Shown: positions 1,877-57,610 of the stretch, in pieces | Numbering within the stretch: the first letter of the stretch is position 1 | How the letters are laid out: every line of letters starts with the position of its first letter | Virus record (IMG/VR): IMGVR_UViG_3300025132_000023 | Coordinates: 32,168 to 96,167 of that record | From: a virus | DNA: 64,000 nucleotides | Reading direction: 5' to 3' (one strand) | Notes under the pieces: generated by a model | Told to the model about the DNA's origin: nothing | Seen by the model: only the letters and a program-made list of their open reading frames with translations | The model's database searches: none | Program-made: the position numbers and the translations under genes

Positions 1877-2632
1877 TTAACGCCTCTTTGGGTCAGGGTC
1901 TAAGTGAACCTTATTTTGAGTTTCTAAATATTTTACTGGAATTTTCTTCCCACTAGCAAGGAACTTTTGTAGTTGTCGCCATTGTTTAAAACTAGATTTT
2001 AGGAAAGTATATGGAGGAGAATTTTCTCCATCCCCTATTCCTTTAATTACCACATCAAATTCAAACCATCCTAGTTTTTCAAATATTTTATCAAATTCTC
2101 TTGTAACTCTTCTCTTAGAGTAATCTTGTAGTTCTTCCCACGTTTGCCATCTTCTATTAAATTCTTTACTAGGGTATGTCGATACTTCTCTTTTATAATA
2201 TCTTTGATAACCATATCTGTTTGGGTCAGAAGTATGTGGTTTGCGGTCATATCTTCTTACATCAAAGAATCTTTGTAAGAAGTGAAAGAACTGTGCGGGG
2301 CTGCTATATGGGTGGTCAGGTTTTGTAGGTTCATGGCCCCAAGCCTTATTATTTCTAACTCGACTTGCTACTTGCCATAATGTTGTATAAGCGTTATCAA
2401 TTTCTGGTTTTAATTCTGTCCACTTATTTTTATACATATCTAGTTCTCTACTAAAATCCTCATCTTTAGGGTCTATTCCTATATGTTCTTTTAATCGTCT
2501 GGTATTTTCATCTCGTTGTGCTGCAAAATCATCGCCGGGAAATGCCCCATATAAACCCGGATTTTCTTCCAAAAGGTCTTCCAACCATTCAGGAATTTTA
2601 TCGTCTTTTTTAAGCACTAATAACCAATTCAT
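1877..2632 (-). CDS. Portal-adjacent hypothetical protein with N-terminal W tag
   Basis: 251 residues starting MNWLLVLKKDD, a member of the set of proteins that share an N-terminal M-x-W-x-x-L-x-K tag. The body is rich in aromatic and charged residues with several predicted helices; I recognise no fold. Its start overlaps the portal stop by four bases (ATGA), so the two are translationally coupled and probably made in a fixed ratio. Position just downstream of portal suggests a head or connector role, by inference only. Confidence 0.7.
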   Translation of the reverse strand: MNWLLVLKKDDKIPEWLEDLLEENPGLYGAFPGDDFAAQRDENTRRLKEHIGIDPKDEDFSRELDMYKNKWTELKPEIDNAYTTLWQVASRVRNNKAWGHEPTKPDHPYSSPAQFFHFLQRFFDVRRYDRKPHTSDPNRYGYQRYYKREVSTYPSKEFNRRWQTWEELQDYSKRRVTREFDKIFEKLGWFEFDVVIKGIGDGENSPPYTFLKSSFKQWRQLQKFLASGKKIPVKYLETQNKVHLDPDPKRR

Positions 2633-4266
2633 CTTGTTCGCCTTTCTGTCCTACTATCTACGTTTGTATTTCCTGCTTCTCTAGGTAAGCCTGTATTTCT
2701 TTTATCTGGGCCTGTTTCAGATGAAGGTTTATTTCTTGTTGCTGGTGGGTTTTCTTGTGGTGTAGGTGCATTACCTTGTTCCATCATTTGTCCCATTTGA
2801 CTTGCATCAATATTTGTTCCAGCATAGGGGTCACGCTCAATTTGTCCCTCTTGACCTTTTGGTTGTTGTCCTCCTTCTGGTGGAGGTTTATGATATGAAA
2901 ATCTTCCTTCATCGTCCATTTCAACTTCAAATCCTAAGTTCTTAATTGATGCAGCAATTTGAACTTCAAGTTCTCTTAGCCTTATCTTTGCTAATTCATC
3001 TTCCTCTTCTGAAGGAGGCAATCTTAATTCCCAATCTGTAATGCCAAATTGTTGTGTAATAAATGGCAATACATAGTCATTCCAAATTGTTTGTGCCATT
3101 TCAACTGCACGGTTTGTAACAAGAATTTGCATACCTTCATTGTTTAATCCACCACTAGCAGAATTGTCTGCCATGAAAATTTTAGATACCCCATAGAAAG
3201 CAGAAATCCTATCTCTTAGGTCTTCTTTAACAGCAATGTAATCCATCTCTTTTAGAGTGTTCATAAAATTAATCCACTCAATAGAACCCTTACCATTTTC
3301 TGCTTCTATTCCCATTACAGGGATAAAGTGCGGGTCTTGTTCCATCTTTTCTTTAACGCCTCTCCAGAAATTTTTCATTGAATCAATGTTTCTGGTTTGA
3401 ACTGCAAGCAATCCTCTTGGCATTCTGCTCTTAGTATAAGAAGAATTTACATAATTTTCCATAGCAATTAAAGTAGTAATGTGATTCCAAAGAGTAAGGA
3501 TTGGTGATAACCCATAAAGTCTGCTTGGATTATATTTGCTAAAGTGTAGAACTTCTCCTTTAATATAATACTGTTCTTCACCATGCGCTCTATTCACATA
3601 ATGTATAGGATATGTTGGGCCACCACATTCTTCACAAAGTTCTGTCGGGTCATCAGATTTAAATTCTCTATGTCTAAGACAAGTAAATCCTTCATTACCT
3701 TTTGCCCCTTTCTCATCAGAATAAATTGCCATAGTTACAGGGTCACCCCTATACATTTCTTTGATTCTATGCATCTTAATTTCACTATTCCCATCTAGGA
3801 AATATTCTTTTACAAGAATAACATATGCATCATCCATAATGTTAAGGTCATCTTCCATTTCCTTAAGAACATCTATGAACATCTGTTCTGAACCATTAAT
3901 ATATCCTCCTAAGAATTTCTTAGCATATTTTAATTGGTCTTTGTCCGGCTTCTTTAAATTTTGTGAACCACATTCTTGACAAACAGGAGTAGGAGATTTA
4001 TGTTTCTTTCCACAATCAGCACACTTAACTACAAACTTCTCATCCCAATGATAGCCCCTTCTAAATATTTCATTCTTTAATTGATTAGTGCAAGTTCTAA
4101 CTATTACACATTGTTGGGCAACGTGATAAATCACAGGCCCGGTTATCATATACGAGGCATCTTTTTCTTGAATACCCGGATTGAATACTTTTCTATCCGC
4201 AGGTTTAGGAGTTCTTCTCCTAAACACATTACGAAGAGAAAATCTTCTTTGTTCTTCTTCTACCAT
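2629..4266 (-). CDS. Portal protein
   Basis: 545-residue protein with the look of phage portals: a stem and clip region with a run around MENYVNSSYTKSRMPRG and ISAFYGVSKIFM, then a long acidic/helical C-terminus ending in a low-complexity Pro/Gln/Asn tail. The portal forms the dodecameric ring at the capsid vertex through which DNA is pumped. It lies one gene from TerL, as expected. Two Cys4 zinc-ribbon-like insertions are visible in the first half (CADCGKK...CQECG and CLRHREF...CEECGG), unusual for a bacteriophage portal but common in archaeal proteins. Assignment rests on motif impression and context. Confidence 0.8.
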   Translation of the reverse strand: MVEEEQRRFSLRNVFRRRTPKPADRKVFNPGIQEKDASYMITGPVIYHVAQQCVIVRTCTNQLKNEIFRRGYHWDEKFVVKCADCGKKHKSPTPVCQECGSQNLKKPDKDQLKYAKKFLGGYINGSEQMFIDVLKEMEDDLNIMDDAYVILVKEYFLDGNSEIKMHRIKEMYRGDPVTMAIYSDEKGAKGNEGFTCLRHREFKSDDPTELCEECGGPTYPIHYVNRAHGEEQYYIKGEVLHFSKYNPSRLYGLSPILTLWNHITTLIAMENYVNSSYTKSRMPRGLLAVQTRNIDSMKNFWRGVKEKMEQDPHFIPVMGIEAENGKGSIEWINFMNTLKEMDYIAVKEDLRDRISAFYGVSKIFMADNSASGGLNNEGMQILVTNRAVEMAQTIWNDYVLPFITQQFGITDWELRLPPSEEEDELAKIRLRELEVQIAASIKNLGFEVEMDDEGRFSYHKPPPEGGQQPKGQEGQIERDPYAGTNIDASQMGQMMEQGNAPTPQENPPATRNKPSSETGPDKRNTGLPREAGNTNVDSRTERRTR

Positions 4267-31553: not shown

Positions 31554-31640
31554 TGCGGGATTCCCAAGTATGGTCAAAGGGGCCGGACTTAAGATTCGGT
31601 GCGTAGTGCTTCGGGGGTTCAAATCCCCCTCCCGCAACCA
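31554..31640 (+). tRNA. tRNA-Leu (anticodon UAA), CCA encoded
   Basis: 87 bases with a complete tRNA layout: acceptor TGCGGGA/TCCCGCA, D-arm with a 3-bp stem, anticodon arm CCGGA-CTTAAGA-TTCGG giving anticodon UAA, long class II variable arm, T-arm GGGGG-TTCAAAT-CCCCC, and an encoded CCA end. It reads UUA (and UUG by wobble), common in this AT-rich genome, so it may supplement the host pool. Confidence 0.93.
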
Positions 31641-34178: not shown

Positions 34179-34305
34179 TGGCAAAGTTAGTTTTATACTA
34201 GACGGTGAACGTGTAGTTTCTATGCCACTAGAAGAATACCATGCAATGGTATCTGAATTAATGAAACTAAGAGTTAGAGTAAAACAACTGGAGGCAGGAT
34301 TATGA
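34171..34305 (+). CDS. Small helical protein (44 aa)
   Basis: ATG lies inside the end of the thioredoxin-like gene. Product MSSGKVSFILDGERVVSM then LKLRVRVKQLEAGL: a short beta pair and a coiled-coil-like helix. ATGA overlap with the next gene. Confidence 0.5.
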   Translation: MSSGKVSFILDGERVVSMPLEEYHAMVSELMKLRVRVKQLEAGL

Positions 34306-34535
34306 GTAAATTAAGAGTATGTAGAATTTGTGGATTAGATGAAACCGTTGGCGGAGAATGGTGTGATAAATATAACCCCATATATTTTCGTGAGAAAGTA
34401 TATTACGCCAAGGATTCTTCATTAGAAGGACATGGTATATGTCTGAAGATGGCACACAATGCAAGACATAAGAAAAACACAATATTATCAAAAGTAAATG
34501 ATAGAACCTATGTATGGGTAAATAAGGATGAATGA
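34302..34535 (+). CDS. Cys-containing hypothetical protein (77 aa)
   Basis: Starts MSKLRVCRICGLDE; CxxC near the N-terminus and two later Cys (GEWCDKYN, GICLKMAH) suggest one zinc site, as in HNH-adjacent or recruitment zinc knuckles, but no HNH residues are seen. Basic C-terminus. Confidence 0.6.
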   Translation: MSKLRVCRICGLDETVGGEWCDKYNPIYFREKVYYAKDSSLEGHGICLKMAHNARHKKNTILSKVNDRTYVWVNKDE

Positions 34536-35704
34536 ATATGGATATTAAACCAAGAAGAAGTTTAAAGAACGGTAGATGGGATAGAAGACTGAAAGAACGC
34601 ATGGTTGCGCTAAGTAACGCAGACAACTATGATGATGCAAAACATGAGTGGATTGCCACCGGAAATGTATGGTGGAATGAAATTGGTAATTATGAACAGT
34701 TACCAGATTATGTTGCAGTTCACCCAGACAAATGCCTATGTGGACATGACATTGTATATCACTTTGAAATCCATAATACTGAGACTGATGTTAGAGAATG
34801 TGTTGGTTCAGACCACATTAATTCGTATCTAATTCTACGAGCAATTCGTGAAGAAACAGGATTAGAAGATGACTATATTACTGATGAAATGATTGAAGAG
34901 TGGATTCAAGTAAGAGTTACTACATTGAAAAAGAACGCTTGGTGGAAGATGCATGGTGAACAGTTTACTGAAATGTTTGATGCAGTAAAAGACATTGACC
35001 TTAGAGTTAATGTTAGAAAGAGTGGTAAGAAATACTATGACTCTACTTTGAGAATGTATAGAGATAAAACTCTAGTGCGTAAGAGAAGTGAAGGAACGTT
35101 TGGAACGCCACGTTATCAAATGGCATCAATAGTATGGCGGTGGAATCACCCCGACAATAAAAAGGCTCAAATCAACACAAAGGGTTGGCCTAACAAGAAA
35201 CTGTATAATGATTTAATGATGTTTTATTTCACGCTTGAAAAAGCAAACGCAATTATCAAAAAAGAAGATGATTTTGTGATAGCGAGAATGGCAGAAATTA
35301 AAAAACATGATGAAATCCAAGAGAACCGACTTGTGGCGGCAAAAGAACGCCGTGAAAGAGTGGTCGCTACAGTAGAAGACATGACACATCAGCCTAAATT
35401 TTTAGAGATGTGCGAATATTATGGACTAGAACCTTTCGTTCCTGAACAAGGAAAAGACAATTGGGAAGAAAGATTCTTAAATGATATTAAACACCGGATG
35501 ATAAAGGGGAACCCACTAACAGATAAGCAATTAACTAAACTGTGGGAAATCCTAGATTCAGACACAAGAGAAGCAGTACCTGCAACTCAAAAACAGAAGG
35601 ACTATTTGATTCGTTTAGGATTTGAAGGGGATATTGACGACATTAGCAAGTCCGATGCAAGCGAACAAATAAATAGAATAAAACAAGAGAGATGGAACAC
35701 ATGA
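34532..35704 (+). CDS. Hypothetical protein with C-terminal KQxxYL module (390 aa)
   Basis: Starts MNMDIKPRRSLK. The first third has CLCGHDIVYHFEIHN and ECVGSDHINS, a probable Cys/His metal site in a phage-like domain. The last 35 residues (ATQKQKDYLIRLGFEGDIDD...ASEQINRIK) match a short helical module common in phage DNA-metabolism proteins. The middle is charged and helical. Possibly a DNA-binding or recombination accessory factor. Confidence 0.6.
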   Translation: MNMDIKPRRSLKNGRWDRRLKERMVALSNADNYDDAKHEWIATGNVWWNEIGNYEQLPDYVAVHPDKCLCGHDIVYHFEIHNTETDVRECVGSDHINSYLILRAIREETGLEDDYITDEMIEEWIQVRVTTLKKNAWWKMHGEQFTEMFDAVKDIDLRVNVRKSGKKYYDSTLRMYRDKTLVRKRSEGTFGTPRYQMASIVWRWNHPDNKKAQINTKGWPNKKLYNDLMMFYFTLEKANAIIKKEDDFVIARMAEIKKHDEIQENRLVAAKERRERVVATVEDMTHQPKFLEMCEYYGLEPFVPEQGKDNWEERFLNDIKHRMIKGNPLTDKQLTKLWEILDSDTREAVPATQKQKDYLIRLGFEGDIDDISKSDASEQINRIKQERWNT

Positions 35705-35955: not shown

Positions 35956-36156
35956 ATGATATTGACTATAATGAACGATACTGGACATACCACCTTAGAA
36001 GTTACTGCTTCTGAGGTAATAGACCAAATTAACGACCACCCTACCCATTGGGTTTTTATTGATGGGGAAATCACATCGAGAGAGATGATTTCGGAAGTTA
36101 ATTGGGATAGTGTTGAGGATGTTTCCTTAACACAGGCTATTGTTGGCGGCTTCTAA
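35956..36156 (+). CDS. Ubiquitin-like beta-grasp protein ending Gly-Gly-Phe
   Basis: 66 residues. It can be laid along ubiquitin almost end to end: MILTIMNDTGHTTLEV for the first beta hairpin (ubiquitin has TGKTITLEV), ASEVIDQIND for the helix, HWVFIDGEITSREMIS for strands three and four, and VEDVSLTQAIVGGF for the last strand and tail. The end is Gly-Gly plus one Phe, as in precursors trimmed to expose Gly-Gly. E1-like and JAMM proteins are encoded 6-7 kb downstream in the same block. Fold by eye only; tail read directly. Confidence 0.55.
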   Translation: MILTIMNDTGHTTLEVTASEVIDQINDHPTHWVFIDGEITSREMISEVNWDSVEDVSLTQAIVGGF

Positions 36157-36230
36157 GCCCCTTCAATACGCCTAAAATTTTAGAAGATTACTGAGCGCAG
36201 CCCCTTCGCGCTCGGTTTTCTTCGCCCTTA
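36157..36230 (+). terminator. Hairpin with T-rich tail
   Basis: GAGCGC...GCGCTC (about 36194-36216) followed by GGTTTTCTTC resembles a stem plus U-rich terminator. It lies between the ubiquitin-like gene and the 133-residue gene and may partly uncouple them. Confidence 0.45.
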
Positions 36231-36632
36231 ATGGAGGTTAAGAACTTGATTGAAAATGATAATTTTAATTTTGTAACTGATTCACATTTTCCAAAGATAA
36301 TGGAAATATTTGGATGGTCTTTGAAGGAATATAAGACATATAACAATCTTGCAGTTGTAAGAGCAGACTTCTATCCTGTTGGATATGTATTAGGCTTTAG
36401 TAAGAAAGCAGTAATAGTATGTGATGGGGAGATGTTGATTACTTACAAAGGTAAAGAGTATAATGACTTTTCACAATTATATGAAGAATATGGGGATGGA
36501 GCATATGAAACATTTCCAGAATGGGACATAAAAATTGTGAAAGAATGGCTCATTAAAGGGCTGAACGGAGAATGGGTTTTCGCATTCTCAAACTTGGCAG
36601 AAATGCCTTATAGAACACAGGTGAAGTGCTAA
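36231..36632 (+). CDS. Hypothetical protein (133 aa)
   Basis: Starts MEVKNLIENDNFNFV. Alpha/beta protein (FYPVGYVLGFSKKAVIVCDG; YKGKEYNDFSQLYEEYG) of no family I recognise. TAATG overlap with the ribonucleotide reductase, so probably expressed with it. Confidence 0.6.
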   Translation: MEVKNLIENDNFNFVTDSHFPKIMEIFGWSLKEYKTYNNLAVVRADFYPVGYVLGFSKKAVIVCDGEMLITYKGKEYNDFSQLYEEYGDGAYETFPEWDIKIVKEWLIKGLNGEWVFAFSNLAEMPYRTQVKC

Positions 36633-38503
36633 TGACAGAAGAAACAGCAGGACAGATAATGAGTAACGTTACGCATTACTTAAAGTATGCGAAATATAAA
36701 CACGATGAGCAAAAGAAGGAAACATGGGAAGAAACGGTAAATAGAAACCGTGATATGCATTTAAAGAATTTTGGGCATTTAGGCCCAGAAGTATATGAGG
36801 GTATTAATAACATATATGATAACTTTGTAATGACAAAGAAGATTCTACCTTCAATGCGCTCATTCCAATATGCAGGTAAGCCAATTGAAATTGCTCCAAA
36901 TAGCATTTATAATTGTGCATATTTGCCTATTGATGACATGGCTTGTTTCCATGAAATATTCTTTTTATTATTGAATGGAACAGGCGTAGGATATTCGGTG
37001 CAACGACACCACGTTGTCAAACTACCGGAGATTCGTAAACCAAATCCAGCAAGAAGTAGAAAGATTGTAATACAGGATTCTATTGTTGGATGGGCAGACG
37101 CTATTAAGGAACTATTTCGTTCCTATACAGGCGAACTGACACAAAAGCCTAGATTTATCTATGATGATATTAGACCCAAAGGAACTCCTTTGAAGACTAG
37201 AGGCGGTAAAGCACCCGGCCCCGAACCTTTGAGAGAATGTCTAGTTATTATAGAGAATATGCTTACACAGATGGAAGATGGTTCTTATCTATCTCCACTA
37301 CAATGCCATGATATAATTTGTCATATGGCAAACGCAGTAACTGCGGGTGGAAATAGACGAGCAGCATTAATCTCTTTATTTAGTGCAAACGATGAAGAGA
37401 TGAAAACGTGCAAGTCTGGGCATTGGTGGGATGGTAACTCTCAAAGAATGAGAGCAAACAATTCTGCCGTTATTCTAAGAAGCAAGGTAACTAAAGATTA
37501 CTTTAATTCCTTGTGGAAGAATATTGAGGAATCCGGTTCAGGAGAACCCGGAATCTATTTCACGCATGATAAGGATTGGGGAACTAATCCTTGTTGTGAA
37601 ATAGCATTGCGTCCTTATCAGTTCTGTAACTTAACAGAAGTAAATGCCTCTACAATAGAGGATGATAAGGATTTGTATGAAAGAGTAGAAGCCGCAACTA
37701 TACTTGGAACATTGCAAGCAACATATACTGACTTCTATTATCTGCGTGATATATGGAAGACAACAACTGAAAGAGATGCCCTTCTAGGTGTATCAATGAC
37801 AGGAATTGCTTCACAGAAGACAGACATATTAGATGTAACAGGTGCGGCACTTCATGCTAAAGAAGTAAACAAGAAGTGGGCAGGGCTATTAGATATTAAC
37901 CCTGCTTCAAGAATTACTTGTGTTAAACCATCGGGAACATCTTCGATGATATTAGGAACGTCAAGCGGTATTCACGCTTGGCACGCTGATTACTATATTA
38001 GAAGAATTAGAATCGGTAAAGACGAAGCAATCTACAAGTATCTGTATGAGAACCATCCAGAGTTAGTAGTAGATGAAATCGGTAACACAAGCGGTGCAAT
38101 AATTGAGATACCTCAAAAAGCACCAGAGGGAGCCTTAACAGGACAAAAAGAAGACGCTTTTGGTTTCCTTGAAAGAGTGAAGAACATGACTATTAGATGG
38201 GTTAACCCCGGACATAGTGATGGTCAAAACACTCACAATATCTCAGCGACTGTATATATTAATGACGGTCAATGGGATGAAGTTGGCGAATGGATGTGGT
38301 TAAACAGACATTATTATAATGGATTGTCTTGTTATCCAGAGATGGCAGTTTATACCCAAGCACCATTTGAAGCGTGCGATAAAGAAACTTACTTGAAGAT
38401 GTTAGTTCCATTGAGAGAAATTGATTTGACTAACATTGTGGAGTTTGAAGATAGCACCGATTTTAGTGACCCCGCTTGCGGTGGTGGCGGCTGTGACATA
38501 TAG
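36632..38503 (+). CDS. Class II (B12-dependent) ribonucleotide reductase
   Basis: 623 residues. Signatures of the monomeric adenosylcobalamin-dependent class: NCAYLP (redox Cys95), the thiyl-radical segment NPCCEIAL (residues 319-326, Cys321), FCNLTEVN (Cys332), PSGTSSMILGTSSGIH near residue 450, and a C-terminal redox tail CGGGGCDI. It reduces ribonucleotides to deoxyribonucleotides for viral DNA synthesis and needs a reductant such as the thioredoxin-like protein at 33870. No small subunit is present, as expected for class II. The second Cys in NPCC replaces the usual Gly or Ala. Confidence 0.93.
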   Translation: MTEETAGQIMSNVTHYLKYAKYKHDEQKKETWEETVNRNRDMHLKNFGHLGPEVYEGINNIYDNFVMTKKILPSMRSFQYAGKPIEIAPNSIYNCAYLPIDDMACFHEIFFLLLNGTGVGYSVQRHHVVKLPEIRKPNPARSRKIVIQDSIVGWADAIKELFRSYTGELTQKPRFIYDDIRPKGTPLKTRGGKAPGPEPLRECLVIIENMLTQMEDGSYLSPLQCHDIICHMANAVTAGGNRRAALISLFSANDEEMKTCKSGHWWDGNSQRMRANNSAVILRSKVTKDYFNSLWKNIEESGSGEPGIYFTHDKDWGTNPCCEIALRPYQFCNLTEVNASTIEDDKDLYERVEAATILGTLQATYTDFYYLRDIWKTTTERDALLGVSMTGIASQKTDILDVTGAALHAKEVNKKWAGLLDINPASRITCVKPSGTSSMILGTSSGIHAWHADYYIRRIRIGKDEAIYKYLYENHPELVVDEIGNTSGAIIEIPQKAPEGALTGQKEDAFGFLERVKNMTIRWVNPGHSDGQNTHNISATVYINDGQWDEVGEWMWLNRHYYNGLSCYPEMAVYTQAPFEACDKETYLKMLVPLREIDLTNIVEFEDSTDFSDPACGGGGCDI

Positions 38504-38840
38504 TTATCACACCGTAAGAAATTTAAAAATCCTTAAGACAATTTGGCCTCTAATGCTAGAACAAGCAGAAAAAGAAATAGAAATACCAACTTCGACATAT
38601 GTTGGACACTATCGTGACGAATATATGTATAATAGCAAAGAGTCAGCACTAAAGGCTCTAACTAGATATTATGAGGACACAATTGTTGAACTAGAAACGA
38701 TTAAAAGTTTCATGAACTATGCGCGGAGACTTTTTATAGTATCGGGTATAGTAGGTAGTGATAGAGAGTATAATAAGTTAATCAAATTATACTACGATAT
38801 TGGAATGTATATAGAAGTGAATAAAAATGATGATTTGTAA
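38493..38840 (+). CDS. Hypothetical protein (115 aa), coupled to RNR
   Basis: GTG at 38493 overlaps the reductase stop; the longer frame upstream is out of context. Product MTYSYHTVRNLKIL..., helical (SALKALTRYYEDTIVELETIK). No family recognised. Confidence 0.55.
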   Translation: MTYSYHTVRNLKILKTIWPLMLEQAEKEIEIPTSTYVGHYRDEYMYNSKESALKALTRYYEDTIVELETIKSFMNYARRLFIVSGIVGSDREYNKLIKLYYDIGMYIEVNKNDDL

Positions 38841-39246
38841 ATGTGGAAATAATAATTTTGAATTAATGATGAATGCCAAACTGCAATGCCAAAGTTGCGG
38901 TAAATATTGGAACCCCTTCTCTGCTCAAGAGCATAAGGTAATGGAGAAGGACGGGTTTCATTTCTTCTGGGTAGTAATGCGAAGCCATTTCTTAGATAGA
39001 TGGGATATTCAATTGCCCGACTTAGAAGAAGAAGAACTGTTAAAAGACTGTGTAGCGTTGAAGAACGTTAGTAAGCAAAACAAGGCTTACTTTACCCCAT
39101 ATCATGGGGGCCATCTTTTCTGGAAGTTTAAGTTTAACAAGCAAAAGAGAAGACTAGAATTAGAGTTAATAACAGTTACTTCAACTAAGGTAAAAGAGTT
39201 GAAGTATGAGAAGAACCCAAAGAAAATGGATATAAAATTTAAGTGA
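38827..39246 (+). CDS. Zinc-ribbon protein (139 aa)
   Basis: MMICKCGNNNFELMMN...KLQCQSCGKYW: CxC and CxxC form an N-terminal zinc ribbon like those of archaeal transcription or replication proteins. The remainder is alpha/beta with a lysine-rich end. Overlaps the previous gene by 14 bases. Confidence 0.6.
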   Translation: MMICKCGNNNFELMMNAKLQCQSCGKYWNPFSAQEHKVMEKDGFHFFWVVMRSHFLDRWDIQLPDLEEEELLKDCVALKNVSKQNKAYFTPYHGGHLFWKFKFNKQKRRLELELITVTSTKVKELKYEKNPKKMDIKFK

Positions 39247-39250
39247 TAAA

Positions 39251-39679
39251 ATGGATGATAATGCAGTATTAGAATTATATGGTAAATTAAATAAAACTCA
39301 GATAATAAGTGGCTATAAAAAGTATCTTGAGGACAATAAGAGATTTCGTAAGAAGAACGATGGGTTTAAGGGATGTATCCCATCTACATTAGAAAGACCT
39401 AAGATTGGTGACACAGTATATTCTTGGAGACAATTCAAGAAACTGCCAAAGGCTTCTGTCATCGTTTACACCTTTAGCCAAGGGTGTGACGTAAAGTATT
39501 TGTCTAAGTTATTAGACAATGGTTTCTTTAGTAATAAGAAACATAAGCCACCGCAGAAGAAATTACCATCGCACTATCGTAAAAGAAGAAAGGTTCAAGT
39601 AATTGAAATGGGACGTTATGGTAAAACCGTATCCAAGTATTTTTGGCCGCACGAATTAAAGCAAAGAGAGGAAGAGTAA
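39251..39679 (+). CDS. Hypothetical basic protein (142 aa)
   Basis: Starts MDDNAVLELYGKLNKTQ. Basic with a central proline/lysine stretch (KKHKPPQKKLPSHYRKRR); the segment SVIVYTFSQGCDVKYLSKLL looks like a helix-turn-helix. Ends QREEE over the next ribosome-binding site. Possibly DNA-binding. Confidence 0.55.
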   Translation: MDDNAVLELYGKLNKTQIISGYKKYLEDNKRFRKKNDGFKGCIPSTLERPKIGDTVYSWRQFKKLPKASVIVYTFSQGCDVKYLSKLLDNGFFSNKKHKPPQKKLPSHYRKRRKVQVIEMGRYGKTVSKYFWPHELKQREEE

Positions 39680-39680
39680 A

Positions 39681-41024
39681 ATGTTAGATAAATATCAATA
39701 TACATATAATTGCACGTTCATAATAAATACGGCAGATGATAATCGTGATAACACGCAGATAACAGATGTTGATATTTATACTAGTTATCCTCTTTACCGC
39801 ACAAGAGTAGAAGGCCCGTCTTACCGAAAAGAAATCATGTGTCATTTGACTCGTTCAAACAAGAAAGGTGACCCTGTAATGCTAGGGATTGCAAACACTC
39901 TTGAGTCTACACTTAGATTGCAAACTAGCCGAGGAGGACGTTATGGGACTTCAGAAATGCCTGAGAATTTTAAGGTGGCTATTGTATTCCCTAACACAGT
40001 TACCGAATCAACCGGCGGGCCTATGATAATAAACATAGAGAAGAAGAACCCCTATTACTATCTAATGAATAACAGAGTGACTAAGAAGAACTGTTTACTC
40101 AATGTTGCTAGAACAATTTACCGTTCTTGTTTTGAAGAAGATTCATTGAAACTAATGGAGTATATGTTTAACATGATTGTGTTACCCGAAAACATCAAGT
40201 ATGTTTTGGAAAATAGAACCCCTTACTTCTTTATTAACGACCCTCTCAATAAAAAGGGACAACGTGAAAGAGTAGAGGTTAGATTAAACACAGAAATGAT
40301 TGGGCCAACAACCGCAGCGTTAGAAATCTCTGATGGTATTTGGGCCCCCATTGAAGTTAAAGACCTAGATGTGTTTATTAACTTTCATTATCATGGACAC
40401 CAGCGTTCTACTAAATGGATGCTAAGTCCTAAAGGACTATGGACTACTTTAATAGGTGAGAAACCTACTGAGTCACAAGAGCATTTAATGTATGAGTTTC
40501 TAACTCAAAACAGAACATCAGATTTGATTGAGGAAAGAGCAAAACAACTTATGCAAGATTTAGTGGATAAGTATCCAGAAAAAATTAAAATTGTTAAGTA
40601 TCAAAACAATCAAAAGAAATGGATTACTGCTATGTTAGTAAGAGGTAAGATGGCTGATTGGATTATCATAGATTCTGCATATAAGACGCAGATTCAAAAG
40701 GTAAAGACGTTCCTCTTTGTTCATAAGGATACTCTACTAACTGAGCCTGAACGAAGACATGGTATAACTGAAGTTAATAACTTTGATGCAGGTTTGTTAA
40801 GAGGCCCAATCTGTATTGATAACATTCATACTAACACTAGTCTAGGTGACCAATATGCTGCTAGAGCATTAGCACTACTAAATGATAATGTGACTATACA
40901 GTTAGTAAATACTATCCAAAGATATGTGCCTACAGCAGTATTGAATGGAGAAATGGAATCCCGATTTGACTTTGAAAACTTAACGGGTTCTGATATTAGA
41001 GATAGATTGGGGAATCAAATGTGA
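39681..41024 (+). CDS. Unknown 447-aa protein, speculative E2-like candidate
   Basis: No family recognised with certainty. The N-terminal 200 residues are beta-rich; the rest contains LLRGPICIDNIHTNTSLG (Cys378) followed by the helix QYAARALALLNDN. GxICxD followed by a helix recalls the catalytic segment of E2 enzymes, and Prok-E2_D family proteins are described as having a separate N-terminal domain and lying beside E1, JAB and ubiquitin-like genes. The gene is coupled to TFB and lies next to an E1-like gene. The match is weak; it could equally be an unrelated virus protein. Confidence 0.5.
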   Translation: MLDKYQYTYNCTFIINTADDNRDNTQITDVDIYTSYPLYRTRVEGPSYRKEIMCHLTRSNKKGDPVMLGIANTLESTLRLQTSRGGRYGTSEMPENFKVAIVFPNTVTESTGGPMIINIEKKNPYYYLMNNRVTKKNCLLNVARTIYRSCFEEDSLKLMEYMFNMIVLPENIKYVLENRTPYFFINDPLNKKGQRERVEVRLNTEMIGPTTAALEISDGIWAPIEVKDLDVFINFHYHGHQRSTKWMLSPKGLWTTLIGEKPTESQEHLMYEFLTQNRTSDLIEERAKQLMQDLVDKYPEKIKIVKYQNNQKKWITAMLVRGKMADWIIIDSAYKTQIQKVKTFLFVHKDTLLTEPERRHGITEVNNFDAGLLRGPICIDNIHTNTSLGDQYAARALALLNDNVTIQLVNTIQRYVPTAVLNGEMESRFDFENLTGSDIRDRLGNQM

Positions 41025-41821
41025 ACTGTTTGAATTGTTCTAGTAATTTAATAGATTTTGACGACAGACTTGATGAGTTTGTATGTGGGGAATGCAGAAC
41101 CGTGTTGGTAAACAGAATACATGAAGAAGTATTACCAATAACTTACAAGCCTAATGTCACTCATGTGAGAAGTGGTATAAACACATTGCAGACAGAAGTA
41201 AATATGATTTCTTCATACTATGAGTTTGGTTATGAAGTAGAAGACGACATTATTGCACTAATCCGCGAAGTGATAGAAAGAGGGATGCCTTACTCCGAAA
41301 GAATGATAGCCAAGGCAATTCTTCATTACGTCTTTAAATGCCACTTAGTCCCTAACAATATCCGAAAGGATATTAGAGGAGAACGAGATAAACGGACATT
41401 TAAAAAGGCATTAGGTGTAATTAAGCATTATGTTGATACGCCTTGGTGGAGAACAAATAACCCGGAAGGACACATTGCGAAAATAGTAAGTAATATGTTT
41501 GTGGTGAGCGAAGCAGTTCCTGATGATTTTAGAGATAATATGATTAACGATGTAAAAAAGGTTATTCATTATATGGATGGGGTATTGTCGTTTCAAGGAT
41601 ATGGTCAGACTATGACAAACTATGCCATGATGGTATGGTTAGCCACTAGTGTGTTACTTAGAATAAACTTAAGTGTTAATGAAATAGCAGAAGTGTTCTT
41701 TGTATCGGCAAGTTCTATTAAGAAAAGATGGGACACAACACAACACTTGTTTAACGTTACAAGTAGAAGTATTCTAAACTTAACGTTAGAAGAATTTATA
41801 GAAGGAATAAGATATGAATAA
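41021..41821 (+). CDS. Transcription initiation factor TFB (TFIIB-like)
   Basis: 266 residues. An N-terminal zinc ribbon, CLNC...CGEC (C3, C6, C22, C25), is followed by about 200 helical residues in two repeats with the size of cyclin folds; the second ends SVNEIAEVFFVSASSIKKRW, the recognition-helix region. TFB recruits archaeal RNA polymerase to TATA promoters, so a viral copy may redirect transcription to viral genes. GTG start overlapping the previous stop. Confidence 0.85.
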   Translation: MNCLNCSSNLIDFDDRLDEFVCGECRTVLVNRIHEEVLPITYKPNVTHVRSGINTLQTEVNMISSYYEFGYEVEDDIIALIREVIERGMPYSERMIAKAILHYVFKCHLVPNNIRKDIRGERDKRTFKKALGVIKHYVDTPWWRTNNPEGHIAKIVSNMFVVSEAVPDDFRDNMINDVKKVIHYMDGVLSFQGYGQTMTNYAMMVWLATSVLLRINLSVNEIAEVFFVSASSIKKRWDTTQHLFNVTSRSILNLTLEEFIEGIRYE

Positions 41822-42398
41822 AGATAAAAGAAATATAATGATAATAGGGGTAGGGGGAATAGGTAGTTATCTTGCCCCACTACTAAAGAGAGTAGGTGTT
41901 TATTCTATGTTTTTGGCAGACCCAGATATTGTAGAAGAAAAGAACCTATTGTATCAAAACTTTCATAAGATAACTGTAGGAGAAAAGAAAGTTAATTCTC
42001 TACATATGAATGGTCATGTTAGAAGTGACTATCCTATAAGAACAGATGTTTGTCTTAGAAAAGATAAAATGGATTTAATTGTTTGTTGTGCAGACAACTT
42101 AGACATTAGACGACTTGTATACCGTCAAGGATTTCAAGACGATGCTAAAGTTAAATGGTTAGATTTAAGAGCGCAAGGTAGAAATGGGGCATTGATTAGT
42201 TACTTAACTGACCCCAAATTTAGCGATATGTTCTTACAAGGGCCGGAAGGTTCTTTCTCCTGTCAAGGAGAGCAAGATGAGATTACACCAGAGAGCGTGC
42301 ATTTTACCCACGTTGCAGTAGCAGGTATGGCTGCACAATGGATTCAAAGATGGTTCAATGGTGAAGAAGTAAAAGATAAAATGGTGATAAATATATGA
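41814..42398 (+). CDS. E1/ThiF-like adenylating enzyme
   Basis: 194 residues, only the adenylation core. GVGGIGSYLAPL (12-23) is the nucleotide-binding glycine loop; ADPDIVEEKNLLYQNF (35-50) matches the Asp-x-Asp...N...Q region; GEKKV (57-61) supplies the conserved Lys; CCADNLDIRR (91-100) the Asp that holds ATP/Mg. Cys150 (GSFSCQGEQ) is a candidate acceptor. The usual Arg before Gln is replaced (LYQ), so activity needs testing. Such enzymes activate the C-terminal glycine of ubiquitin-like proteins. Overlaps TFB and the next gene. Confidence 0.85.
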   Translation: MNKDKRNIMIIGVGGIGSYLAPLLKRVGVYSMFLADPDIVEEKNLLYQNFHKITVGEKKVNSLHMNGHVRSDYPIRTDVCLRKDKMDLIVCCADNLDIRRLVYRQGFQDDAKVKWLDLRAQGRNGALISYLTDPKFSDMFLQGPEGSFSCQGEQDEITPESVHFTHVAVAGMAAQWIQRWFNGEEVKDKMVINI

Positions 42399-43075
42399 AA
42401 CACAAAAGAAGAGTTTGGAATGAAGAGGAAAAGAAATTCCTTTGGGAATTGCACACAACAAAGATGGATGATGGTAAGAAATTACCTCATGCTCTAGTAG
42501 TGCATTTCTTTAATGAAAGATATAAGAGTAGAACGCGTAGTTCTAAAAGCATAGAGTATATGCTAGGGAAGATGACTAAGGTTGAGGCAATAAAGAAAGT
42601 CAAGGTAACTCCTGACATGGAGAAGACAGTTGCTCAACTTACTAAGGCAATTGAAGAGAAGCCAAAGAAGAAGTCGATGCGAGGAAAGGTTGATAGACGT
42701 AAGTTTAATACTAAGAACGCTAGAAAGGCTTGGAACTATCCCGGAGATAAGTACCTAATAATGAATTGGGACGCAAATGATGAAAACAGAAAGAAGATTG
42801 CAAAACATCTAGGTAGAACACTACATTCTTGTCGTACTAGATTAAGTAAGATTAAGAAGCAACCAGATTATTATGATAAGTTGTTAGGAATGGATACTTC
42901 TACACATTCTGTTGTTATTGAACCTACTGTAAGTGAACAACTTGTGGCAAAGGTTGATAACGGCGGGGGGCTGTTGGAGAAATTGCTGAGATGGCTAGTC
43001 CACAGACGGCAAACCAAAGAACAACGTAAGATTGCAAAGATTGAAAGAAAGTTGCAAAAGTTGAGAGGGATTTAA
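42395..43075 (+). CDS. SANT/Myb-like DNA-binding protein (226 aa)
   Basis: Two probable Myb/SANT-type modules: RRVWNEEEKKFLWELH...SSKSIEYMLGKM at the N-terminus, and KYLIMNWDANDENRKKIAKHLGR-type sequence ending HSCRTRLSKIK in the middle. Basic C-terminal helix (EQRKIAKIERKLQKL). Sits between the E1-like and JAMM genes with an ATGA overlap. Likely a DNA-binding regulator; also resembles the N-terminal module of the protein at 30375. Confidence 0.65.
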   Translation: MKHKRRVWNEEEKKFLWELHTTKMDDGKKLPHALVVHFFNERYKSRTRSSKSIEYMLGKMTKVEAIKKVKVTPDMEKTVAQLTKAIEEKPKKKSMRGKVDRRKFNTKNARKAWNYPGDKYLIMNWDANDENRKKIAKHLGRTLHSCRTRLSKIKKQPDYYDKLLGMDTSTHSVVIEPTVSEQLVAKVDNGGGLLEKLLRWLVHRRQTKEQRKIAKIERKLQKLRGI

Positions 43076-43570
43076 ATGGTGTTAAACATGGTTGGTTTTG
43101 AAGTTAAGATAGAAGATTGGAAAGAGCAGATTCAATGGGCTTATCGGAACGGAAGCACTCAAGATTTCCATGATGCTATTTGGGCTATGTCAACATATGC
43201 CTTCGATATACCTAGAGAAGTGCAGGTAGTTATTGATAGACATGATATGCTCTTTATGAGTGTAGGCACACCGGGTTTTGTATCCTTTGATGGACATTTC
43301 CCTAAAGGCATGGTAATACCTTTGAAAGAATGGATTCATACTCATCCATTCGGGCAAGCATATTTTAGCGGAACCGATAAGAATACCGTAAAGATATGGC
43401 ACTCTCTGTTAGAGTCTGCTACTGTTTTGGGTAAGCATCAAAAAGCAGAATTAAAGTTTAGAGTATTAAACGATGGGAAAGACCATTTGTATACCCATAG
43501 TGAAAGAGAAAACAGATGGAACACAGTCAACCAAGTAATGAATACACTTTGGGGTGACGAAGAAGAATGA
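43076..43570 (+). CDS. JAMM/MPN-family metalloprotease (isopeptidase-like)
   Basis: 164 residues. WIHTHPFGQAYFSGTDKNT contains a perfect JAMM motif HxH-x7-S-x2-D: His88, His90, Ser98, Asp101. An upstream Glu needed for catalysis could be Glu48 (IPREVQVV). Such enzymes cut ubiquitin-like proteins from partners or trim residues after Gly-Gly, and here could remove the terminal Phe of the protein at 35956. It lies two genes after the E1-like gene. Confidence 0.85.
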   Translation: MVLNMVGFEVKIEDWKEQIQWAYRNGSTQDFHDAIWAMSTYAFDIPREVQVVIDRHDMLFMSVGTPGFVSFDGHFPKGMVIPLKEWIHTHPFGQAYFSGTDKNTVKIWHSLLESATVLGKHQKAELKFRVLNDGKDHLYTHSERENRWNTVNQVMNTLWGDEEE

Positions 43571-43638: not shown

Positions 43639-43836
43639 ATGTTTGGAAAAGAAACAGAAACATCGGTAAGTGTAAGAGATGTAGATTGTGGAGATGAAAC
43701 GATACTACGTCTAAAGCGTGATGGCAGAGTATTTGCACACGTTACAATAACAAAGCATGGGCACACCCATGTGTTTGATATAATTCAGAGAGATGTTATG
43801 TCAAACGCTAAAAACGGAAGTGAAAATAATGAATAA
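43639..43836 (+). CDS. Hypothetical small beta protein (65 aa)
   Basis: ATG behind GAGGTGA. Product MFGKETETSVSVRDVDCGDE then alternating strands (RLKRDGRVFAHVTITKHGHT). No C-terminal Gly-Gly, so not called ubiquitin-like. No family recognised. Confidence 0.55.
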   Translation: MFGKETETSVSVRDVDCGDETILRLKRDGRVFAHVTITKHGHTHVFDIIQRDVMSNAKNGSENNE

Positions 43837-44269
43837 GGCATATGTAATGGGCCTCCTGTTTATGACAGGAATGTTGGCAGGTTGTGCGGAAGCAATTCCT
43901 GACCCGCCAAGTGTAGTTGAAGGAGATAATGCACCTGATTGGGTGTATTTGAACGGAACCTACACATATATAGTTGAAGATAACAATTCAACGATTCCTG
44001 TGATTTCACTAGGAAATGAAAGCACTTGGCTACAGGTTGATTCCTTTACGCTGAATGCAACTCACATGAGTTTTGTGACAGAAGATAATGCTATTACCTT
44101 CAACAACAAGTCCTTTACTCTAGGTGGGTATCTACAACAAGAAAGTGTGCTTTGGGATGGCGGTTATGCCCCACTTATGGGTAATAACACATTGTTCTTC
44201 CCTAAGTTCCCATACGATATAACTGTGGATTACATGGTTGTATATCGTGAGTGGACAGGAACAGAGTGA
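43829..44269 (+). CDS. Virus-encoded lipoprotein (146 aa)
   Basis: Start at 43829 gives MNKAYVMGLLFMTGMLAGC, a signal peptide with lipobox LAGC (lipidated Cys19). The mature part is acidic with many N-x-S/T sites and beta-strand-like repeats (YLNGTYTYIVEDNNST; TWLQVDSFTLNATHMS). It should be exported and anchored on the outer face of the membrane. Possible roles are superinfection exclusion or receptor masking; not shown. Confidence 0.75.
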   Translation: MNKAYVMGLLFMTGMLAGCAEAIPDPPSVVEGDNAPDWVYLNGTYTYIVEDNNSTIPVISLGNESTWLQVDSFTLNATHMSFVTEDNAITFNNKSFTLGGYLQQESVLWDGGYAPLMGNNTLFFPKFPYDITVDYMVVYREWTGTE

Positions 44270-45119: not shown

Positions 45120-45250
45120 TGAGTGCTTTAAATTGGTGTATGTGTTGGAGAACCGAATGGGAATATAAACACATGACAGATGATAAAGGTGGATGTAAAC
45201 ATTGTGGAAAGAGAGTTAAGTTCTTTTTCGTGAAGAAGGTGACAGCATGA
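45119..45250 (+). CDS. Zinc-ribbon protein (43 aa)
   Basis: Product MSALNWCMCWRTEWEYKH, then CKHCGKRVKFFFVKKVTA: CxC/CxxC cluster. TAATG start overlapping the previous stop. Probably zinc-binding. Confidence 0.6.
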   Translation: MSALNWCMCWRTEWEYKHMTDDKGGCKHCGKRVKFFFVKKVTA

Positions 45251-45399
45251 AACCTTGTTTTAACTGTGGAACCTATGATGGTAAGAATAAAGACGGCAAT
45301 ACTATTGCATTACAATCAACCAAGTTTGGTAGTGTTTGTGGTGCTTGTATAGAAGACGCGCTTTCTTTTTTGTATGCCAAAAAGAAAGGAGGACTATAG
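45247..45399 (+). CDS. Zinc-ribbon protein (50 aa)
   Basis: MKPCFNCGTYDGKNKDG...FGSVCGACIEDALSFL: CxxC...CxxC with 20-odd residues between, a minimal zinc ribbon. ATGA overlap with the previous gene; ends over GGAGGAC before the next start. Confidence 0.6.
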   Translation: MKPCFNCGTYDGKNKDGNTIALQSTKFGSVCGACIEDALSFLYAKKKGGL

Positions 45400-45576
45400 A
45401 TGACAGAATGTTTTATATGTAATAAAGATAAAGAGCAACTACTTGCGATTGATAATAAGAGATTAAATTTCAAGGCTACAGTTTGCTTTCCTTGTGTCGT
45501 CCTTAAACTAAAAGAAGAAAAGGATAAGGATGCTCATGCACAAATTGCTAAACTATTTGCAGAGGAAGCAGCATGA
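45400..45576 (+). CDS. Zinc-ribbon protein (58 aa)
   Basis: MTECFICNKDKEQLLAID...ATVCFPCVVLKLKEEK: CxxC...CxxC followed by an acidic/basic helix. Third consecutive tiny zinc protein. ATGA overlap with the DNA ligase. Confidence 0.6.
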   Translation: MTECFICNKDKEQLLAIDNKRLNFKATVCFPCVVLKLKEEKDKDAHAQIAKLFAEEAA

Positions 45577-54534: not shown

Positions 54535-56196
54535 ATGATAATAACAACATTAAGTAAGACCAATGAAGTAGCACTTCGTTGGAGAGAAGAGGGAGAAAGA
54601 AAAGAAGAGAAGATTTCTTTTGTTGATTTCAAACCATATTTTTATATTGAAGATGTAGACCAAGAAAAAGCACACCTTCGTATTAGAGAAAGAGGAGTAA
54701 ACACTCGTATTGAGTTATCTTATGAAAGAGGAGATTGGGTTTCCCTTGAAGGTAAGAGATTAAAAAAGGTTACTTGGTATCCTCCCTTGCCTTCTTACAA
54801 TAGAATACTTAAAAAAGAATGGGAACAAACGTATGAAGCAGATGTTCCTTTTCACTATAGATATGTAGTAGATAACTTGGAGTCAATACCAGAATATGAT
54901 TTAAGAAAGTGGTATTGGGATATGGAATGGCAACAGGGTGGAGATTTTGATGGTATGATAACTGCGTTAGTAGTTTATGATAACCATTCAAAAACCATGA
55001 ATAACTTTCATTGGTTTCCTCCTACCGCAGTAGGGGATTATTCTGACACAACATGGCGACATGAATCAGAAAAAGAGATGCTTGAGAATTTTATCCAATG
55101 GATGAATACTCGCGACCCCGATATGATGATTTCATGGTTCGGGTCTAAGTTCGATTTACCTAAACTTATTGAAAGACTTCTAGCAAACGGAATAGACCCT
55201 AGAAAAATTTCTCCTTACAACGAAGTGAAGGGAATATATTTTGATAACCGAGCAGGAGAACTAAAGTTATCAAAGGCAGTATCACATTATACCCCAATAG
55301 AACAACCCGTTAGAGGAAGAATTTTATTGAATTTAGATGTGGCATTTGAAAGACAATGGAACGACTCACAAAGAGGAACGCTCCCTTCTATGGCATTGGA
55401 TTATGTAGCAGAAATGGTTCTAGGTGAAAAGAAAATGGTGAGTGAAAAGTTCCCAGATAAAAATGAGTTTTTCGCTAAGGCATGGTTAGAAGAATCGCAG
55501 ACTTATATGGACTATGCTAAGAAAGATGTTGAGTTGCTTGTAAAGATAGATGAGAAAAATTATCTATCGGAGTCTATCCTTGCTTTACAGCGACTACTAA
55601 TAGCACCATTCGATGCGTGTTTTTATGCAAGCAATATGGGTAGCATATATTTTATGAGAAACGCTGATTGGAAAGCCCCAACAGGAAAAGAGGGGCCAAA
55701 GATAGATTATCAAGGGGCCATGATTTATGACCCTTCTGTTGAAGGAACATTTGGATTACATGAAAATGTTGCTGCGTTTGATTTCGCAGGTCTGTATCCT
55801 TCAATTACTGTAGCACTCAACATAAGTTGGGAAACCAAGTCTTCTGAAGAAACTGAATTTGGTATAAATATTTTAACTCCTAGAGATTTTAGTGATGAGG
55901 ATGAAGTCAATATGCTCTACTATAAAACAGATAAACTAGGTATGTTGCCGAAGGCTGTCCTTGAATTAAAAGAACTTCGTAATGAGTATAAGAAAAATAT
56001 GAAGGAAGCCAAGACAGATGATGAGTATTACAAATGGTATAATAACCAAATGGCAGTTAAAAGATTGATGGCATCTTTTTATGGTATCATTGGCTACCAA
56101 GGTTTTTCATGGGCTGACATTGATATGGCTGCTAGTATTACAGCAGGTGCGAGAAAAGCAATTAGAAGTGCAGCATTTAAGGTGATGGAACTATGA
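54535..56196 (+). CDS. polB: Family B DNA polymerase, N-terminal part (exonuclease, motifs A and B)
   Basis: 553 residues. Exo I YWDMEWQQGGDF (Asp129, Glu131), Exo II ISWFGSKFDLPKL, Exo III YMDYAKKDVELL, motif A AFDFAGLYPSI and motif B QMAVKRLMASFYGIIG are all present. The frame then stops after ARKAIRSAAFKVMEL, just before motif C, which is in the gene at 56705. The protein is thus the large half of a split polymerase and must pair with the small half to be active. The split site is close to that of the two-subunit PolB of Methanothermobacter. Confidence 0.93.
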   Translation: MIITTLSKTNEVALRWREEGERKEEKISFVDFKPYFYIEDVDQEKAHLRIRERGVNTRIELSYERGDWVSLEGKRLKKVTWYPPLPSYNRILKKEWEQTYEADVPFHYRYVVDNLESIPEYDLRKWYWDMEWQQGGDFDGMITALVVYDNHSKTMNNFHWFPPTAVGDYSDTTWRHESEKEMLENFIQWMNTRDPDMMISWFGSKFDLPKLIERLLANGIDPRKISPYNEVKGIYFDNRAGELKLSKAVSHYTPIEQPVRGRILLNLDVAFERQWNDSQRGTLPSMALDYVAEMVLGEKKMVSEKFPDKNEFFAKAWLEESQTYMDYAKKDVELLVKIDEKNYLSESILALQRLLIAPFDACFYASNMGSIYFMRNADWKAPTGKEGPKIDYQGAMIYDPSVEGTFGLHENVAAFDFAGLYPSITVALNISWETKSSEETEFGINILTPRDFSDEDEVNMLYYKTDKLGMLPKAVLELKELRNEYKKNMKEAKTDDEYYKWYNNQMAVKRLMASFYGIIGYQGFSWADIDMAASITAGARKAIRSAAFKVMEL

Positions 56197-56580: not shown

Positions 56581-56708
56581 CAAGAGGAGAAATAGAAATG
56601 TGGGCGCAAGATAATTTTGCGAGCCTTGCATTAGCAAGAACGGTCTTTAGTTTTGTAAAGATAGTTATTGCTTCTGCTATTATGATAGAAGTATTTGGGT
56701 GGGTATGA
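56577..56708 (+). CDS. Membrane peptide inside polB split (43 aa)
   Basis: MTRGEIEMWAQDNFASLA then a hydrophobic helix (SFVKIVIASAIMIEVFGWV). Its TGA overlaps the ATG of the polB small part, so translation is coupled to it. Confidence 0.5.
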   Translation: MTRGEIEMWAQDNFASLALARTVFSFVKIVIASAIMIEVFGWV

Positions 56709-57610
56709 TGAAATTAGTATATGGACACACAGATTCTATTTATGTGCAAATGCCAATGGAACAAACAGAAGAAATTTTAGCACTATTGAATACCCATGTG
56801 CGGCAAGAGTTTCCTAATGTCTTAGGACTAGAAGAACATCCTATTAAATTAGAACATGAAAAATACTTTCAAACCCTTGGAGTAGGAACAACTAAGAACA
56901 GAAATGCAGGATTGATAAATTGGAAAGATGGAGAATATTTAGATGAACCTGAGTTTGTTATGACAGGCTTTGTGGCAAAGAGAGTAGCAATATCTGAGAT
57001 TGAAAAGTTTATACAAATGTCAGTATTGAGAATGTGGGTTGAGAAAAAGACAGAAGCGGAAGTAACTTCTTTTATCAAACTATGGTATAACAAAGTAATC
57101 TCAGGCGACATTGAGTTGAAAAAATTATCAAACAGAAGCAGATATAGGCCCGAAAGACTTACCTTCAAATGTAGTAAATGCAATAAGGAATCTACTGTAA
57201 AACAACTAATAGATTCACAAGTTAATTACTGTGTAAAGTGTGGGCATGAAGATTCTTTGACAACCTTAGAAGGAAAAAGACCTTCTATCTCGCAAGGGAC
57301 AGAAGGATTGATTTGGTATAATCAGCAGGATTTTTCAGAACCTATAGAAGATTCTTATTTGTATATCAGAGTATCCGATATACCAACTAGACCTACTTAT
57401 AAAAACCCAATAACAAATGTATGGAAAAGACCAAAATACATTTCAGCACCCACCTTGCAAAGATTAGGTGAGATAGCAACTACACCAGATTATCATCACT
57501 ATGGTAATGCTTTGGTGAAAAAAGCCGACCCAATTTATCGAGCGATGGGGTGGGACTTAGATAAAATAAAGTTCGATATAAATCAGAAAACATTAGATGA
57601 ATGGTGGTAA
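56705..57610 (+). CDS. polB: Family B DNA polymerase, C-terminal part (motif C)
   Basis: About 301 residues, beginning MMKLVYGHTDSIYVQMP: motif C (YGHTDS) is only five residues from the start codon. The palm and thumb follow, with a Cys4 zinc ribbon inside (FKCSKCNKES...YCVKCGHED) and the expected thumb sequence near the end (DPIYRAMGWDLDKI). Together with the large part this makes a complete polymerase of about 850 residues. The junction lies at the position where PolB inteins commonly insert, but no intein sequence remains. Confidence 0.93.
   Translation: MMKLVYGHTDSIYVQMPMEQTEEILALLNTHVRQEFPNVLGLEEHPIKLEHEKYFQTLGVGTTKNRNAGLINWKDGEYLDEPEFVMTGFVAKRVAISEIEKFIQMSVLRMWVEKKTEAEVTSFIKLWYNKVISGDIELKKLSNRSRYRPERLTFKCSKCNKESTVKQLIDSQVNYCVKCGHEDSLTTLEGKRPSISQGTEGLIWYNQQDFSEPIEDSYLYIRVSDIPTRPTYKNPITNVWKRPKYISAPTLQRLGEIATTPDYHHYGNALVKKADPIYRAMGWDLDKIKFDINQKTLDEWW

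Follow-up and report, generated by a model that had tools for sequence, protein, structure and literature searches.

Does the virus behind this DNA tag proteins with a ubiquitin-like modifier of its own? The question is raised by one stretch of 64,000 nucleotides (the window), bases 32168-96167 of IMG/VR record IMGVR_UViG_3300025132_000023, whose total length is 96,167 bp. The virus is a 96-kb marine archaeal tailed virus and, by its gene content, probably a magrovirus (order Magrovirales). An earlier note, made from the letters of the window, had proposed a ubiquitin-like conjugation or processing pathway built from a 66-residue ubiquitin-like protein (Ubl), an E1/ThiF-like enzyme, a JAMM protease and a weak E2 candidate. 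All four open reading frames (ORFs) were recovered with exactly the boundaries given below, and the proposal gained support from the predicted fold of the modifier, the conserved catalytic residues and a strict co-occurrence of the genes. We consider it likely that the virus encodes a ubiquitin-like conjugation and deconjugation pathway. The genes and residues concerned are the following.

35956-36156, plus strand: ubiquitin-like modifier of 66 residues, ending in VGG-F and having zero lysines, assigned from its AlphaFold2 (AF2) beta-grasp model, Foldseek matches and Gly-Gly terminus
36145-36150, plus strand: Gly64-Gly65 of the modifier, followed by Phe66 as the putative tail to be trimmed
39681-41024, plus strand: probable E2-like conjugating enzyme of 447 residues, with a UBC-like domain at about residues 280-447
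40812-40814, plus strand: candidate catalytic Cys378 of the E2-like protein, in GPICID
41021-41821, plus strand: divergent TFIIB/TFB homologue, overlapping the E2-like gene and the E1 gene
41814-42398, plus strand: minimal E1-like activating enzyme of 194 residues
42261-42263, plus strand: candidate thioester Cys150 of the E1, in the motif S-x-S-C-Q
42395-43075, plus strand: SANT/Myb-like protein, accessory and not conserved, with a weak Pfam Myb match (0.17) and PHROG matches
43076-43570, plus strand: single-domain JAMM/MPN+ metalloprotease of 164 residues

The modifier gave no match in Pfam or in a sequence search of the PDB. Its AF2 model, obtained with 50 homologues as input, had a predicted local distance difference test (pLDDT) score of 90 and showed the order b-b-a-b-b-a-b of a beta-grasp, the fold on which the earlier proposal depended. 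Nearly all of the 50 best Foldseek matches listed were ubiquitin or ubiquitin-like proteins (ubiquitin, NEDD8, ISG15, SUMO etc.), the best being the ubiquitin of an E1-ubiquitin-AMP complex (E = 2e-3, probability 0.99). The template modelling scores (TM-scores) were about 0.4-0.5, and the predicted fold is therefore ubiquitin-like yet not close. Residues V63, G64 and G65 were invariant in 50 aligned sequences. The Gly-Gly-Phe end pointed out in the earlier note proved to be one form of a universal terminus: in all 105 distinct modifiers a Gly-Gly closes the sequence or is followed by no more than 7 variable residues (range 0-7, usually 1 or 2). On the model, the modifier would thus be a beta-grasp protein with a free or exposable C-terminal glycine, as expected in a conjugation pathway. 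The modifiers carried a net charge of -6 to -13, and lysine was absent from 34 of the 101 scored and present once in another 47. The median pairwise dN/dS was 0.23, which indicates purifying selection. A search of 84,980 cellular genomes found the modifier only on viral-looking contigs of one bin. Three different contigs bearing it (L184-L186, NZTP01) sit in one bacterial GTDB metagenome-assembled genome, Altibacter sp. MAG EAC109, most likely as viral contamination of the bin.

The E1-like protein matched Pfam ThiF with E = 7.6e-16, and the family profile found UBA5, MoeB and the ubiquitin E1 (UBA1) as its best PDB matches (E from 8e-11 to 4e-10) and also Cap2 (1e-9), in agreement with the E1/ThiF-like enzyme of the earlier note. 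The residues for nucleotide and Mg binding, G12-x-GG-x-G17, D36, D38, N44, Q48, K59, D94 and N95, were invariant in the alignment, and Cys150 was the one invariant cysteine (136/136). Judged from the alignment, the protein would therefore possess the adenylation residues and the catalytic cysteine of an activating enzyme, bar one substitution weighed below. In the JAMM protease, the perfect metal ligands noticed earlier were found throughout the family: E48, the candidate catalytic glutamate, and H88-T-H90-x7-S98-x2-D101 (H-x-H-x7-S-x2-D) were invariant in 137 of 137 sequences. The protein of the window itself matched Pfam Prok-JAB weakly (E = 0.005), and this family was matched by 42 of 50 relatives. 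The best PDB match of the family profile was AMSH-LP (2.6e-5), which places it closest to AMSH-type deubiquitinases. In one relative (record G034, L180; 24245-24692) the JAMM match lies in two pieces, owing to an assembly error or a broken gene.

The 447-residue protein was the weakest member of the original proposal, and here the outcome was divided. The GPICID motif is real, and its Cys378 is the sole invariant cysteine of the family (139/139 rows), lying in G-x-[ILV]-C-[ILV]-D in 112 of 140 members; this pattern agrees with the latter half of the standard signature for E2 active sites (PROSITE PS00183). The AF2 model (pLDDT 86) showed a helix at 281-297, four strands within 302-348, C378 and a helix at 388-400, so that the predicted C-terminal domain follows the UBC order of a helix and four strands, a cysteine and a helix. 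The gene was also as widespread as that of the E1, while the fold and profile searches described below gave no significant match. We judge the protein to be probably an E2, an assignment that is statistically unproven.

We then asked how constantly the genes occur together. The order modifier, E2-like protein, E1, JAMM on one strand was found in 191 of 191 loci, these being the fetched loci that hold all four genes, some of which overlap and are drawn from the same contigs; the genes lying between the four vary (ribonucleotide reductase (RNR), SANT/Myb, small ORFs). With DNA polymerase B (PolB) as a neutral bait, 36 records of at least 33 kb were obtained, a sample that covers relatives whose PolB is at least about 55% identical. 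The E1 was present in 30 of them, and the position of PolB in the other six (G002, G020, G349, G351, G352, G354) implies that these contigs end at or before the expected locus. The modifier was carried by 29 of the 30 records with an E1, the exception (G004) starting inside the locus. Thus the four-gene set is present in every PolB-baited contig long enough for it. In the same way, among 50 large records collected with mixed baits, the modifier was detected in 46 and the E2-like protein, the JAMM and the E1 in 48 each, every miss being at a contig end. E1 and JAMM were accordingly never seen without the modifier except where a contig ends. Their occurrence without it in relatives was one of two outcomes named in the earlier note as refuting its proposal, a modifier lacking the beta-grasp fold being the other, and neither was observed. 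One record of 184,733 bp (G010; L176/L234) contains two complete, different copies of the cassette 93 kb apart, and probably represents two virus genomes joined during assembly.

These genes could work together as follows. The JAMM protease would trim the 0-7 residue tail of the modifier and expose Gly-Gly, which the ThiF/E1-like protein would adenylate with ATP, holding the modifier as a thioester on Cys150. The charged modifier would then be handed on to Cys378 of the E2-like protein and joined by it to lysines of proteins, the N-terminal part of the E2-like protein (roughly 280 residues) picking the substrates in place of an E3; the JAMM may finally take the modifier off again. With so few lysines to build on, or none at all, the modifier would more likely be attached as a single tag or through its N-terminus than in long chains.

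Several points weigh against such a pathway. No conjugate has ever been seen. Few modifiers end directly in Gly-Gly, and since some do, trimming of the tail would not always be needed. The E1 has a tyrosine where the canonical NLNRQ motif has an arginine. No Pfam match was found for 65 members of the family of the E2-like protein, and none to Prok-E2_D among the families listed; a search with Prok-E2_B matched nothing anywhere and was thus uninformative. A PDB sequence search returned nothing usable. Foldseek of the whole 447-residue model gave no significant match in the PDB, UbcH5B appearing at an E-value of about 1, and retrieved only three viral homologues of the whole protein from BFVD. 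By hhalign, the family aligned with four yeast E2s at E = 0.04, which is a lead only, and with PRTRC-B at E = 0.2, unrelated controls scoring no worse. C378 was placed opposite the E2 cysteine in both of these alignments, neither of which is significant. In the same small test PRTRC-B itself matched the yeast E2s with a probability of only 4%, so that the test has little power. Finally, the His-Pro-Asn motif of E2 enzymes was not found in the 447-residue protein, and no RING or other E3 was found.

The same genes may be read in other ways. The modifier could be a sulfur carrier like ThiS, MoaD or CysO, which the E1 adenylates, which forms a thiocarboxylate and which the JAMM frees after use, for example for thiolation of tRNA, a cofactor or cysteine, with no conjugation to proteins. 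The E1 is indeed a minimal domain of the ThiF/MoeB type, archaea commonly have sulfur-carrier Ubls (PMC2948915) and some sulfur-carrier operons include a JAMM (PMC1779556). However, no thiazole synthase, MoaE, cysteine synthase, rhodanese or thiolase was found among the window proteins scanned, which were a part of its ORFs, and the set is always accompanied by a protein of equal conservation whose E2-like cysteine is invariant; we regard a sulfur carrier as unlikely. A role in counter-defence, in which a dead-end modifier floods the cell, the JAMM strips SAMP or Ubl tags of the host and the E1 and the 447-residue protein intercept host modifiers, would aim at disarming a Ubl-based defence rather than at tagging proteins. 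Such defences exist in bacteria, where CBASS (cyclic oligonucleotide-based antiphage signalling system) uses Ubl conjugation against phages (PMC10097602), and where the Bil Ubl system also acts against phages (Hor et al. 2024, as cited in PMC12660748). The many JAMM deSAMPylases of Borg elements have been proposed to counter tagging by the host (PMC12660748). Against this, the active-site residues of the E1 and of the 447-residue protein show the same invariance as those of the JAMM, which argues for active charging catalysis and not for a decoy. The set is moreover universal in the sample and lies within the replication module, whereas counter-defence genes are patchy, and we give this explanation only a slender chance.

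A device for virion assembly was also considered. Lambdoid phage tail operons contain pairs of a Ubl and a JAB protein (PMC1779556), and in the lambda tail proteins I and K a JAB/NlpC protease cleaves a Ubl domain. The cassette is located on the strand opposite to the portal gene, with genes for RNR, ligase and DNA polymerase around it; the JAMM is single-domain, and an E1 is missing from the lambda pair. From its genome position and the lack of an NlpC/P60 fusion, a tail-assembly device of the lambda TAPI/TAPK kind was rejected as extremely improbable.

The earlier note had linked the cassette to transcription through a TFB and a SANT/Myb gene lying among the four. The first half of this link was strengthened. 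The TFB profile matches TFIIB in the PDB at 2e-19, a zinc ribbon (Zn_Ribbon_TF) was detected in 21 of 24 relatives, and the gene lies between those of the E2-like protein and the E1 in 216 of 217 loci, overlapping or adjoining the E2-like gene in 188 of 219. The second half did not extend to the family, as no more than 69 of 217 loci had a SANT/Myb gene that could be detected. In the window, overlaps of 4, 8 and 4 nt join the E2-like, TFB, E1 and SANT/Myb genes in turn, and the JAMM gene adjoins directly; they very likely form one transcript. With a viral TFIIB homologue always between the E2-like and E1 genes, transcription factors of the host or the virus would be the most plausible targets, and the pathway is perhaps directed at them. 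A precedent for this class of target is Haloferax TBP2, which is sampylated and undergoes proteasomal degradation (PMC4895103). The fixed TFB link could be explained if the pathway removed or modified the TBP or TFB of the host and the virus supplied a TFB of its own. In its strongest form, an E1-E2 relay locked to the viral TFIIB would tag host basal factors or switch viral ones, redirecting RNA polymerase to viral genes; we put this forward tentatively, as a doubtful idea.

Among known systems, the same kinds of parts (Ubl, E1, E2-like protein and JAB) are found in bacterial clusters of the PRTRC type (PMC1779556, class 6d), to which the earlier note had compared the window. In the comparison loci, from Bacteroidota (L339-L349), a Ubl and an E1 are likewise encoded together with an E2-like protein bearing a conserved cysteine and in many cases with a JAB. 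The comparison holds only as an analogy: the E1s are related (hhalign probability 97.5, E = 6e-12), but no link was obtained from the viral Ubl to PRTRC-C or from the E2-like protein to PRTRC-B, similarity being not significant (hhalign probability below 1). Neither a PRTRC-E nor a PRTRC-F partner was identified beside the viral set, and PRTRC-F gave no significant hhalign match to the 447-residue protein. The PRTRC-C Ubl of one locus (L339) has no terminal Gly-Gly, whereas the viral Ubl always has it, and the TFB is built into the viral cluster, unlike in PRTRC. The viral E1 is closer to other E1s, with a probability of 99.3 for that of crAss-like phages (E = 1e-20). These phages (crAss001 gp75-gp78; L322, L323, L350-L353), tailed viruses with an adjacent JAB (gp77) and E1 (gp76) in the replication region, are the closest virus parallel, their JAMM matching at E = 2e-5. 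The pair is flanked by two conserved unknowns, one of which, gp78, bears two motifs that recall E2, H-S-H and P-C-x-G. The block has the look of another system of the Ubl type carried by viruses, a description of which our literature search did not find. The crAss-like set differs in that no separate Ubl ending in Gly-Gly was seen, the host is bacterial and there is no TFB; by hhalign, gp75 and gp78 did not significantly match the viral E2-like protein or Ubl.

Archaeal sampylation (SAMP/UbaA/HvJAMM1) shares a small beta-grasp modifier ending in Gly-Gly, an E1 and a JAMM. Its genes, however, are cellular and rarely clustered, and the viral modifier, in contrast to those of sampylation, shows no sequence match to known families. 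Sampylation is an E1-only system with no dedicated E2, and one survey detected no archaeal E2-like protein (PMC2948915), whereas a probable E2 was present in 48 of the 50 large records. We would class the viral set neither with PRTRC nor with sampylation. CBASS Cap2/Cap3 and Bil resemble it in using prokaryotic E1/E2/JAB chemistry during infection (PMC10097602); they are cellular defences, whereas the whole set described here belongs to the virus, its Ubl standing free and its E1 and E2 being separate proteins. Borgs, archaeal extrachromosomal elements, carry AMSH-like JAMM proteins in many copies and one SAMP, and no linked E1-E2-Ubl set is described in the sections of PMC12660748 consulted. 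No set of this kind in an archaeal virus was found in the literature; the search did not include Philosof 2017 and Prabhu 2025, where ThiF/JAB genes may have been annotated earlier.

The affiliation of the virus follows from the rest of the window. Minus-strand genes fill its left part, including the portal gene (2629-4266, minus strand), and plus-strand genes its right part, with RNR, an ATP ligase, an AAA clamp loader, a PD-(D/E)XK nuclease and PolB:

54535-56196 and 56699-57610, plus strand: DNA polymerase B, split over two genes

Magroviruses are described as tailed viruses of 90-110 kb with a split PolB, a clamp loader, an ATP ligase, a TFB and replication and structural genes on opposite strands (PMC10768690). 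By its gene content the window agrees with this description in the split PolB, clamp loader, ligase, TFB, size and opposed strands. Among named phages, haloarchaeal tailed viruses have the closest PolB, a kinship reported also for magroviruses (PMC10160649). The two-gene PolB is the arrangement described for Aoguangviridae. Marine virus AG-345-P14, whose PolB hinted at a distant relative, was rejected as it is filed as a cyanophage (Kyanoviridae). A tRNA-Leu (TAA) gene (31554-31640) near the switch from minus to plus strand could aid host assignment. In most relatives the modifier gene is closely preceded by one for a 390-residue protein (34532-35704 in the window) with a C-x-C-x-H...C stretch and a C-terminus of the type T-x-K-Q-x-x-Y-L, which could belong to the system. 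Small CxxC proteins near the cassette (34302-34535, 45247-45399 and 45400-45576) are possible zinc-ribbon or treble-clef proteins and candidates for E3-like partners. The ORF directly downstream of the JAMM (43793-44269) starts with a lipoprotein-like signal (LAGCAEA), and in some relatives a chaperonin gene lies near the locus.

That viruses hijack, mimic or block systems of the ubiquitin type is known, but one that brings along its own modifier, E1, probable E2 and deconjugase as a conserved core would be out of the ordinary. Within the sample, which represents part of a virus group described as abundant in the surface ocean, the set is seemingly universal, and it points to protein tagging as central in the infection of Poseidoniales-type archaea. 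The TFB gives a fixed link to transcription, and the compact five-protein set is suited to in vitro testing. E2-like proteins are rare in archaea, and the set therefore bears on the origin of the E1-E2 relay. If the link to transcription is true, the cassette would represent a complete, virus-owned ubiquitin-type signalling pathway and an E2-dependent archaeal pathway beyond the known Asgard and Caldiarchaeum cases.

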